Shown piece by piece: positions 534-29,486 of a stretch of DNA of 29,486 nt (the first letter of the stretch is position 1; each line of letters starts with the position of its first letter). A model generated the notes under the pieces. It did not search any database. It saw only the letters and a list, made by a program, of their open reading frames with translations, and was not told the DNA's origin. Position numbers and translations under genes: made by a program. Origin of the DNA: Candidatus Aenigmatarchaeota archaeon (GTDB lineage Archaea > Aenigmatarchaeota > Aenigmatarchaeia > Aenigmatarchaeales > JAHLMR01); NCBI GenBank assembly GCA_018920255.1, contig JAHLMR010000007.1, positions 1-29,486 on the forward strand, read 5' to 3'.

Positions 534-647
534 TATAAATAATTTAATTTTATTTATATTTAAAACTTGAAAAATAAAATAAATTTTTTATTGATATGTA
601 ATAAGTTTCTAAATTTGTGAATTTAAAATTGGTGTCGGGGGCGGGGA

Positions 648-758
648 TTTCTCTGCAACTTCTTCGAAGCTTCTTTTTCAAAAAAAGAAGCTTCAGCAAG
701 AAAAACTGTCTTTCTTGATGCAACTTCTTTTTTAAAGAAGTTGCAAAGAAGGTTCTTC
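648..758 (-). other. 111-nt hairpin-array intron in T-loop of tRNA-Met (59/60)
   Basis: The insert splits the T-loop after TTCAAA. Plus-strand hairpins: AAAGAAG/CTTCTTT (745-761, overlapping the exon edge), an 11-bp stem 720-744, a 7-bp stem 697-717, and a 13-bp stem 666-694. A relaxed BHB can be drawn with TTC/GAG as central helix and 5' bulge AA^G. The tract 649-776, including the T-stem 5' half and variable loop, is identical over 128 nt to 20090-20217 in tRNA-Lys. Confidence 0.82.
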
Positions 759-780
759 TTTGAACCCGCGACCTTCAGAT

Positions 781-816
781 ATCTCATTGATTTATTCTCG
801 AAACTCATAAATCTAT
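781..816 (-). other. 36-nt canonical 37/38 intron of tRNA-Met
   Basis: A textbook archaeal bulge-helix-bulge: outer helix TCAGA/TCTGA, central helix CTCA/TGAG, 5' bulge TA^A, 3' bulge AT^A, inner helix GATTTAT/ATAAATC. Splicing restores the anticodon loop CTCATAA. Position 37/38 is the commonest intron site in archaeal tRNAs. Confidence 0.9.
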
Positions 817-833
817 TATGAGTCTGACGCTCT

Positions 834-848
834 TTCCTGCAATAATGT
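834..848 (-). other. 15-nt intron in D-loop of tRNA-Met (20/21)
   Basis: The interrupted D-arm folds as a very compact bulge-helix-bulge: outer helix GCTC/GAGC, central 4-bp helix CCTG/CAGG, 5' bulge GTA cut as GT^A, 3' bulge AAA cut as AA^A, and an inner mini-hairpin CA-TTAT-TG. Cutting at the standard place in each bulge joins GT to A and gives the normal loop AGCCTGGTA. The pairing is read directly; excision is inference. Confidence 0.8.
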
Positions 849-892
849 ACCAGGCTGAGCCACCCCGACTTTAAAAAAATAATAAAAATTAG

Positions 893-8001: not shown

Positions 8002-8031
8002 TAAATAATATGCCCCAGTAGCTCAGTTGGT

Positions 8032-8044
8032 ACAAATGCAAAAA
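8032..8044 (+). other. 13-nt intron in D-loop of tRNA-Thr (20/21)
   Basis: Same site as the tRNA-Met D-loop insert. Pairing: outer GCTC/GAGC, central TTG/CAA (a fourth G-A pair is a mismatch), 5' bulge GT^A, inner CA..TG, 3' bulge AA^A. Joining gives GCTCAGTTGGTAGAGC, a normal D-arm. The common pattern ACA...TGCA...AA with the tRNA-Met insert suggests a shared origin. Confidence 0.75.
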
Positions 8045-8083
8045 AGAGCGGCTGCCTCGTAAGCAGCAGGTCGGGAGTTCAAA

Positions 8084-8107
8084 GCAGCTTTTAAAAAATG
8101 AGTAAAA
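8084..8107 (+). other. 24-nt intron in T-loop of tRNA-Thr (59/60)
   Basis: Splits the T-loop after TTCAAA, the same site as the larger inserts. A 4-bp central helix TTCA/TGAG and 5' bulge AA^G can be drawn; the 3' side loop is 6 rather than 3 bases (TAAAA^A), a relaxed form. A small AAAG-cag-CTTT hairpin begins at the same place as the first hairpin of the long versions. Confidence 0.72.
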
Positions 8108-8138
8108 ACTCCCCTGGGGCTCCAAAGAGGTGCTTAAA

Positions 8139-8716: not shown

Positions 8717-8874
8717 GCGCCATTGGTCTAGTGGTAGGATAGGAGCTTCCCAAGCTCTTGGCCTGGGTTCAAAGAACCTTCTTTCTTAAAGAAAGAAGGT
8801 TCATCAAGAAAGACAAATTTTCTTGATGCAACTTCTTTTTTAAAGAAGTTGCGGGATTCCCAGATGGCGCACCA
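8717..8874 (+). tRNA. tRNA-Gly(CCC) with T-loop intron
   Basis: Acceptor GCGCCAT/ATGGCGC (8717-8723, 8864-8870), A871, encoded CCA 8872-8874. D-arm GTCT-AGTGGTA-GGAT, anticodon stem GGAGC/GCTCT, loop TTCCCAA with anticodon CCC, T-stem CTGGG/CCCAG. The insert 8774-8857 splits the T-loop; removal gives TTCAAAT. The gene sits one base after a stop codon and 3 bases before an in-frame ATG of the next gene. Confidence 0.93.
8774..8857 (+). other. 84-nt hairpin-array intron in T-loop of tRNA-Gly(CCC) (59/60)
   Basis: Three consecutive perfect hairpins: 12-bp GAACCTTCTTTC stem (8774-8802), 9-bp ATCAAGAAA stem (8803-8827), 11-bp GCAACTTCTTT stem (8828-8852). The last two are also in the tRNA-Met and tRNA-Lys inserts, but in reversed order, and the 11-bp module has loop TTT where those read AAA in the tRNA sense, as if flipped. 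Junction pairing TTC/GGG plus bulges AA^G and AT^T is a relaxed BHB. Confidence 0.8.
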
Positions 8875-17814: not shown

Positions 17815-17998
17815 TGGTGCGCCAGCTGGGAATCCCGCAACTTCTTCGAAGCTTCTTTTTCAAAAAAAGAAGCTTCAGCAAGAAAAACTTTTTAAGTTTT
17901 CTTGATGAAACTTCTTTTTCTAAAAGAAGTTTCGAAGCTTCTTCGAACCCAGGTCAGCAGCTTGGAAGGCTGCGGTCCTACCACTAGACTACTGGCGC
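17815..17998 (-). tRNA. tRNA-Gly(TCC) with T-loop intron, overlapping Sec61-beta gene
   Basis: Acceptor GCGCCAG/CTGGCGC (17998-17992, 17825-17819), A17818, encoded CCA 17817-17815. D-arm GTCT-AGTGGTA-GGAC, anticodon stem GCAGC/GCTGC, loop CTTCCAA with TCC, T-stem CTGGG/CCCAG. The insert 17832-17941 splits the T-loop; removal gives TTCGAAT. The first 15 bases are also the last codons and TAG stop of the Sec61-beta gene. Confidence 0.93.
17832..17941 (-). other. 110-nt hairpin-array intron in T-loop of tRNA-Gly(TCC) (59/60)
   Basis: The cleanest T-loop BHB here: outer CTGGG/CCCAG, central TTCG/CGGG (two G-T pairs), 5' bulge AA^G, 3' bulge AT^T, restoring TTCGAAT. Inside are a TTCGAAG/CTTCGAA stem touching the exon, a 12-bp GAAACTTCTTTT stem, a CAAGAAAACTT stem and the same 13-bp GAAGCTTCTTTTT stem (848-876 of this kb) as in tRNA-Met and tRNA-Lys. 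Confidence 0.83.
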
Positions 17999-20072: not shown

Positions 20073-20259
20073 TGGTGGGCCCAACGGGATTCTCTGCAAC
20101 TTCTTCGAAGCTTCTTTTTCAAAAAAAGAAGCTTCAGCAAGAAAAACTGTCTTTCTTGATGCAACTTCTTTTTTAAAGAAGTTGCAAAGAAGGTTCTTCT
20201 TTGAACCCGCGACCTTCCGCTTAAGAGGCGGTTGCTCTACCAGACTGAGCTATGGACCC
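20073..20259 (-). tRNA. tRNA-Lys(CTT) with T-loop intron
   Basis: Acceptor GGGTCCA/TGGGCCC (one G-T pair), A20076, encoded CCA 20075-20073. D-arm GCTC-AGTCTGGTA-GAGC, anticodon stem CCGC/GCGG with an A27-A43 mismatch, loop CTCTTAA with CTT, T-stem GCGGG/CCCGT. The insert 20090-20199 splits the T-loop; removal gives TTCAAAT. Confidence 0.92.
20090..20199 (-). other. 110-nt hairpin-array intron in T-loop of tRNA-Lys (59/60)
   Basis: Near-copy of the tRNA-Met insert: the 128-nt tract 20090-20217 is identical to 649-776 and extends into exon sequence (variable loop, T-stem 5' half). Junction: central TTC/GAG, bulges AA^G and AA^T. The hairpins match those listed for tRNA-Met, including the 13-bp stem at 20107-20135. 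Confidence 0.83.
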
Positions 20260-28131: not shown

Positions 28132-28155
28132 ATTAAGTAGATATTAGATTCCTAT

Positions 28156-28222
28156 TTTACATTTTTAACTTCAGTAAATACTAATTCTCTGTCTTTTGTT
28201 TTTGAAATAATATCGAATTTTA
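28156..28222 (-). pseudogene. Decayed fragment of PD-(D/E)XK-like gene
   Basis: 67 bases differ at only four positions from 29349-29415, inside the intact open frame at the window end. Read on the minus strand it gives FDIISKTKDRELVFTEVKNVK followed at once by a stop, so only the D...E-V-K core remains. Confidence 0.75.
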
Positions 28223-29132: not shown

Positions 29133-29486
29133 TCAACCTTATCTATTACTATTATATCAATATTATATATTGATTTAAATTCTTCTAATTTATTTAAAAT
29201 AGTTTTTGGTATTTTTTCATGTGATATAAATCTATATTTAATTTTTTGATTAATTTCAATGTTTTTAAGAAAAATAAGATGTGATTTTATTTGTTTTATT
29301 ATTTCTTTGAAATCTTTAGTTTCGGAATTTTCATAAATTTTTTCCCAATTTACATTTTTAACTTCAGTAAATACTAATTCTCCATCTTTTGTTTCTGAAA
29401 TAATATCGAATTCTATGTTTTCTGTTTCTTTTTCTCTAATTCTTTTAATCTCTTTAATAGCATTTTCATTTATTTTAATATTTTTA
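29133..29486 (-). CDS. C-terminal part of protein with PD-(D/E)XK nuclease-like domain (cut by window edge)
   Basis: 118 residues visible, open to the window edge, ending at a TGA. The run IEFDIISETKDGELVFTEVKN has the order Asp, then E-V-K, of the PD-(D/E)XK nuclease fold; the same wording occurs in the C-terminal DUF234 domain of archaeal AAA+ ATPases, which is the likeliest identity. A free nuclease is the alternative. N-terminus not visible. Confidence 0.65.

Follow-up and report, generated by a model that had tools for sequence, protein, structure and literature searches.

The window analyzed here, contig C23, is a stretch of 29,486 nucleotides from the genome of a Candidatus Aenigmatarchaeota archaeon (552,063 bases in 25 contigs; 94.6% complete). 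In the window sequence as it stands, ARAGORN called no tRNAs because the tRNA genes are interrupted. T-loop introns were excised in silico with cuts between TTCAA (TTCGA in tRNA-Gly(TCC)) and the final two T-loop bases. After excision, the program accepted tRNA-Gly(CCC), tRNA-Gly(TCC), and tRNA-Lys(CTT), and it accepted tRNA-Met(CAT), with its 36-nt anticodon-loop intron, once the T- and D-loop introns had been removed. For these window tRNAs, a canonical tRNA thus results in silico from removing the intron, as defines an archaeal tRNA intron. The T-loop intron of tRNA-Thr(CGT) is 25 nt long (8083-8107) and carries no hairpin unit. The preliminary description of this DNA had placed an intron in the tRNA-Gly(CCC) gene at 8774-8857; an intron does lie there, one nucleotide off that position. 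Table 1 lists the genes, the introns, and the repeat units within them.

Table 1. Interrupted tRNA genes of the window, their introns, and the repeat units
Feature	Position	Strand	Basis or score
tRNA-Met(CAT) gene, three introns	630..869	-	Sequence; ARAGORN after removal of T- and D-loop introns
tRNA-Met T-loop intron, 111 nt	649..759	-	
Unit D (GAAGCTTCTTTTT hairpin) in tRNA-Met, antisense to tRNA	666..703	+	R1 36.3 bits
Unit B in tRNA-Met, sense to tRNA	711..744	-	R1 55.8 bits
tRNA-Met D-loop intron, 15 nt	834..848	-	
tRNA-Met anticodon-loop intron, 36 nt		-	
tRNA-Thr(CGT) gene, T-loop intron and short D-loop intron	8012..8121	+	Sequence; intronless homologue L188 in G004
tRNA-Gly(CCC) gene with T-loop intron	8717..8874	+	ARAGORN after in silico excision
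tRNA-Gly(CCC) T-loop intron, 84 nt: sense unit A and antisense unit B, tail to tail	8773..8856	+	
Unit A (13-bp hairpin and tail): GAACCTTCTTTCTTAAAGAAAGAAGGTTC + ATCAAGAAA	8774..8811	+	R1 46.8 bits, E 1.4e-6
Unit B, inverted (11-bp hairpin): GCAACTTCTTTAAAAAAGAAGTTGC + ATCAAGAAA	8819..8852	-	R1 55.8 bits, E 3.2e-8
tRNA-Gly(TCC) gene with T-loop intron	17815..17998	-	ARAGORN after excision
tRNA-Gly(TCC) T-loop intron, 110 nt	17833..17942	-	
Unit D in tRNA-Gly(TCC), antisense to tRNA	17848..17885	+	R1 36.3 bits
Unit C (GAAACTTCTTT hairpin) in tRNA-Gly(TCC), sense to tRNA	17898..17933	-	R1 49.7 bits
tRNA-Lys(CTT) gene with T-loop intron	20073..20259	-	ARAGORN after excision
tRNA-Lys T-loop intron, 110 nt	20091..20200	-	
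Unit D in tRNA-Lys, antisense to tRNA	20107..20144	+	R1 36.3 bits
Unit B in tRNA-Lys, sense to tRNA	20152..20185	-	R1 55.8 bits

The long introns had been described as arrays of perfect hairpins with an AAAGAAG core, and all of the modules named in that description are present in the window. The Gly(CCC) intron has two perfect hairpins, one of 13 bp (GAACCTTCTTTCT/..) and one of 11 bp (GCAACTTCTTT TTT AAAGAAGTTGC). The Met and Lys introns join an GCAACTTCTTT AAA AAAGAAGTTGC hairpin to a 13-bp GAAGCTTCTTTTT hairpin, and the Gly(TCC) intron joins a 12-bp GAAACTTCTTT hairpin to the same 13-bp type, so that the 11-bp module (Gly(CCC), Met, and Lys) and the 13-bp module (Met, Lys, and Gly(TCC)) are distributed as first reported. 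The window holds 8 matches to the pattern CTTCTTTN{1,8}AAAGAAG versus 0.02 expected from dinucleotide shuffles, all of them within these four T-loop introns. When the ATCAAGAA tail was added to the core pattern, 5 matches remained in the window versus 0.00 in the shuffles. Chance AT-rich hairpins were ruled out by the shuffles together with a backwards-pattern control.

The building block of these arrays is polar: a perfect hairpin, with a stem of about 9 to 16 bp and usually a 3-nt loop, is followed by the tail ATCAAGAAA or ATCAAAA. CAAGAAA, once listed as a module in its own right, is present as part of this tail and not as an independent piece. Each unit-bearing intron of the window contains two units, paired tail to tail. 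The inversion noticed between AAA and TTT loops is real. Unit B takes the first place, sense to the tRNA, in Met and Lys but the second in Gly(CCC), where hairpin and tail are inverted together; the 11-bp module is reverse-complemented there because the whole unit occupies the second, antisense place. The term "palindromic" therefore needs qualification, since the unit is polar and its inversion follows from tail-to-tail pairing.

A covariance model, R1, was built from observed units only. The stem is 100% paired, with compensatory changes at 6 of 11 pairs and a covariation of 0.383 versus 0.102 after shuffling; compensated variants include TAAACTT/AAGTTTA, GAACCTT/AAGGTTC, TGACCTT/AAGGTCA, and TAATCTT/AAGATTA. 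Conservation of the core and the tail in R1 partly reflects how the units were selected because the pattern used to choose them fixes both. When these loci, themselves pattern-selected, were scanned for hairpins of any sequence, an ATCAA tail followed 27 of 577 non-core hairpins, compared to 1 to 9 for ten words of the same composition. An Rfam search of the window matched zero families, and a group I intron, another catalytic intron, or a known RNA was rejected on that result; in the loci of relatives, Rfam matched only tRNA, SRP, and 5S RNAs.

Genome-wide, 17 T-loop introns were located; 16 carry perfect hairpins of 10 to 16 bp and 1 has none. R1 identified 29 units at E ≤ 0.01, and the matches listed all lie within T-loop introns. 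No tail-bearing exact copy was found outside the T-loop introns of this genome, and every strong blastn match to the Met intron in its own genome lies in a tRNA T loop. Four main hairpin types occur (A, GAACCTT; B, GCAACTT; C, GAAACTT; D, GAAGCTT), in the pairings B/D, A/D, C/D, A/B, A/C, and D/B. Intron sizes range from 53 nt, with a single unit (L019), to 129 nt. In the four introns of 119 to 129 nt (L004, L008, L009, and L011), an extra GGTTC/AGTTC-ATCAAGAAA (or AGCAAGAAA) 3' tail segment lies beyond the inner pair, which fits, as judged from the sequence, introns that grew as further units were added or nested. A tRNA at about 1810-1950 of locus L323, read as Phe, has two abutting tailless hairpins, as does L027.

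Because units are located only in T loops here, their spread in this genome may largely be the copying of whole introns. Plain copying could in principle account for the whole pattern: a single hairpin-rich T-loop intron would have been passed between tRNA genes by recombination or gene conversion and then diverged, with a unit that is not itself mobile. The constant polarity and pairing of the units in T loops agree with such a history. So does a 128-nt block that is identical between Met and Lys and contains both T-loop introns together with T-arm exon sequence, and large-scale transposition of introns between tRNAs has been described (PMC4090602). However, unit types combine in both orientations, beyond what copying alone makes, and the account is weakened further because units are dispersed in other genomes, many of which have the same polar unit outside T loops and tRNAs. 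As a full explanation, we regard copying as unlikely.

In all 16 hairpin-bearing introns, a GAA, GAG, or GGG close to the 3' end of the intron can pair with T54-T55-C56. The resulting helix at the exon-intron junctions is relaxed, and no strict bulge-helix-bulge (BHB), with its 4-bp helix and two 3-nt bulges, is apparent. The genome has two adjacent EndA open reading frames (PF01974; E 4.6e-25 and 1.2e-16; G000:C11:57379-58187, L323), consistent with heteromeric enzymes that tolerate noncanonical sites (PMC4090602). The EndA pair adjoins tRNA genes with T-loop introns.

Relatives differ in these insertions. Within the same order, tRNA-Lys(CTT), tRNA-Gly(TCC), and tRNA-Thr(CGT) are uninterrupted in G004, and tRNA-Gly(CCC) is uninterrupted in G011. 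At the level of gene comparison, these data show the T-loop introns to be a lineage-specific gain in this genome. Variation of the arrays among relatives, which the preliminary description had proposed to look for, was found within a single genus (G066 and G067), in tRNA-Ser, tRNA-Gly, and gene junctions. The D loop of tRNA-Ser holds a clean 39-nt unit insert in G067 and none in G066, with no target-site duplication visible at the G067 insertion; only G066 has a tRNA-Ser T-loop intron, and the intron content of tRNA-Gly also differs between the two. An intergenic unit of G066 is absent from the matching G067 region. At a G067 junction read as rpS24e-rpS27ae, a unit overlaps the TAA stop codon; the relatives read at this junction are without such a unit, having short junctions or unrelated sequence, and G055 has a different hairpin there.

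Evidence for insertion outside T loops rests on other genomes because no such copy was located in this one. The preliminary description had also proposed testing for modules outside tRNAs; these occur in many other archaea, while in this genome the modules were found only in T loops. When GTDB contigs were searched for exact matches to the hairpin followed by ATCAAGAAA, at least 100 stretches were returned, a lower bound on its spread; those listed were mostly from Aenigmatarchaeota, Micrarchaeota, Nanoarchaeota, Woesearchaeota, Pacearchaeota, and Diapherotrites. R1 was positive in 53 of 156 Aenigmatarchaeota genomes, with up to 29 units per genome, and in all 16 of the other genomes counted as DPANN (1 to 46 copies each), one of which is labeled Marsarchaeota in its record. 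ANME-1 GoMg1 has 13 R1 units; two of them (L308) directly follow a tRNA, upstream of a gene read as aRF1 from its translation. Several bacterial records matched the exact pattern too, including Clostridia, Denitromonas, and Gilvimarinus, with many from one Clostridia MAG. R1 matched 0 of 9 bacterial genomes, all nine chosen for an exact-pattern match, and on this result the bacterial matches are taken to be coincidences or unrelated repeats. Viral carriage was rejected, with zero exact unit copies in IMG/VR contigs.

In other genomes, units lie within tRNA introns, abut tRNAs, or overlap stop codons. Positions were compared for 99 units from these genomes. For 14 of them, the start is no more than 6 nt from the stop codon that ends a frame of 100 or more codons, compared to 38 of 1,980 random positions (binomial P of about 8e-9). 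Of the same 99 units, 18 lie inside ARAGORN tRNAs, a lower bound because ARAGORN misses D- and T-loop introns, and 16 have such a tRNA no more than 25 nt away. This excess of units around stop codons and tRNA ends, together with a stem kept by compensatory changes, could be read as the mark of a functional RNA or DNA signal at gene ends, acting in 3'-end processing, mRNA stability, or termination and later captured in introns. That reading is doubtful, however: whether beside tRNA genes or within tRNA introns, the units occur in either orientation, no T run follows the hairpin, and the unit is not kept at the orthologous gene end examined, the rpS24e-rpS27ae-like junction.

Several loci show further rearrangement around units. 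Four or five tandem copies of 10 to 20 nt follow the unit at L245, L246, L251, and L257 (G066/G067); ATTACTGTATTCTAAAACAA and TAAAATAAGAAA are examples of such sequence. At L066, L067, L084, and L122, tRNA fragments are duplicated and have units at their ends; the fragments comprise a tRNA-Gly-like 5' half in two Micrarchaeota and tRNA 3' ends. The L038 unit (G112:C12:6515-6556), close to where an ABC-permease-like frame begins, lies between the two copies of a 15-bp direct repeat, CATGATTGACTTTGC. Classical MITEs carry terminal inverted repeats and a short target-site duplication; of the loci compared with them, L038 and the duplicated tRNA ends at L066, L067, and L084 show duplicated flanks, and the tRNA-Ser D-loop insertion shows none. 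If DNA synthesis switched templates or folded back at AT-rich sites, perfect stems with 3-nt loops, inverted tail-to-tail dimers, and the tandem copies behind some units would arise with no dedicated element. Nonetheless, such synthesis is a rather improbable source of a core and one-sided ATCAARAA tail that recur across several phyla and are absent from all nine bacterial control genomes.

Which enzyme might move the unit was approached through its domains. This genome, 94.6% complete, has neither Y1_Tnp nor RVT_1, and Y1_Tnp was not found in most of the unit-rich relatives (G063, G066, G083, and G146). Y1_Tnp was present in 5 of 13 pattern-positive genomes and in 26 of 143 others, a weak association that is not significant in the phylum (Fisher P of 0.14 and 0.23). 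A RAYT or a reverse transcriptase as the mobilizer was rejected on these grounds: both domains are missing here, and Y1 is weakly associated elsewhere.

These results bear on whether the unit is a REP proper, that is, whether a Y1 tyrosine transposase (RAYT, IS200/IS605 family) recognizes the hairpin and tail and mobilizes the units. The likeness is considerable. As with the GTAG and CGTC REPs (PMC3733652), the unit is a short palindrome of 20 to 40 bp, tagged at one end and present in multiple copies, that occurs singly, as dimers, and in clusters of defined orientation (tail-tail here; head-tail at L093 and L118), with compensated stems and often extragenic positions in other genomes. The higher fraction of Y1_Tnp among pattern-positive genomes also points this way. 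Unlike those REPs (PMC3733652), the unit has a conserved ATCAARAA end (TTYTTGAT on the other strand) in place of a GTAG or CGTC tetranucleotide, belongs to archaea (DPANN and ANME-1), is frequent in tRNA introns, overlaps stop codons, and has no linked RAYT found. CGTC REP families are also without a RAYT (PMC3733652). Because the GTAG/CGTC tag is missing and no RAYT link was found, we did not file the unit as a REP, and membership in the family proper seems quite unlikely. In the text searched, a survey of bacterial and archaeal REPs published in 2025 (PMC12306157) mentions neither DPANN nor introns.

Taken together, the T-loop introns are likely to be spliced-out inserts assembled from units of a short polar repeat, dispersed through DPANN archaea as REPs are in bacteria. 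Units would insert at the borders of genes and within tRNA genes, and a dispersed unit would have entered one T loop, where it was tolerated because it is spliced. Copies in tRNA genes would persist because EndA excises them, with the pairing of T54-T55-C56 and the intron 3' GAA (GAG or GGG) acting as a relaxed BHB. From there, whole introns may have been copied into other tRNAs with similar T arms, and gains or exchanges of units may later have lengthened and rearranged them. A bolder version, in which a DPANN-wide mobile hairpin family without genes of its own is moved by an enzyme and creates tRNA introns by insertion, is a tentative proposal to which we give somewhat less than even chances. 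The preliminary description had argued for a palindromic mobile unit over simple drift; the analysis strongly supports a dispersed palindromic unit, and the support does not extend to a transposition event or a mobilizing enzyme.

The unit looks like a previously undescribed candidate mobile repeat hiding in parts of tRNAs that are spliced out. The Rickettsia RPE is a small palindrome that enters genes, is tolerated, and becomes part of the protein; the units described here, by comparison, would be spliced out of the tRNA and not kept in the product. RPE is named among the bacterial palindromic elements (PMC3733652). In Thermoproteales, noncanonical tRNA introns and tRNA intron transposition have been reported (Fujishima 2010, as cited in PMC4090602). 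Those introns resemble the present ones in being near identical at one position of different tRNAs, in the accompanying EndA genes, and in lineage-specific gain, whereas a dispersed repeat, found outside tRNAs as well, makes up the present ones, and their modules are shuffled and inverted. Like the Asgard Atabeyarchaeia and Freyarchaeia (PMC11291895), this genome has many interrupted tRNAs, several introns per gene, and noncanonical positions; unlike here, a hairpin repeat unit is not mentioned in the accessible part of that account.

No prior description of the dispersed unit was found in the open literature, as distinct from subscription papers and preprints. As far as searched, then, the dispersed building block of tRNA introns is new, while intron transposition between tRNAs was already known. 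Previously, similarity and not a defined mechanism was the sole basis for proposing intron transposition in archaea (PMC4090602). Because a searchable unit occurs both free and inside introns, with presence and absence between congeners, tRNA intron gain becomes directly testable; under the bolder version above, such gain would count as the transposition of a short, defined element. The unit is apparently a multi-phylum dispersed palindrome of DPANN archaea, in very small genomes. To our knowledge, dispersed repeats are not expected in genomes of that size. Separately, the window contains a 74-nt direct repeat close to its right end (28149-28222 and 29342-29415), the two copies of which are 92% identical.
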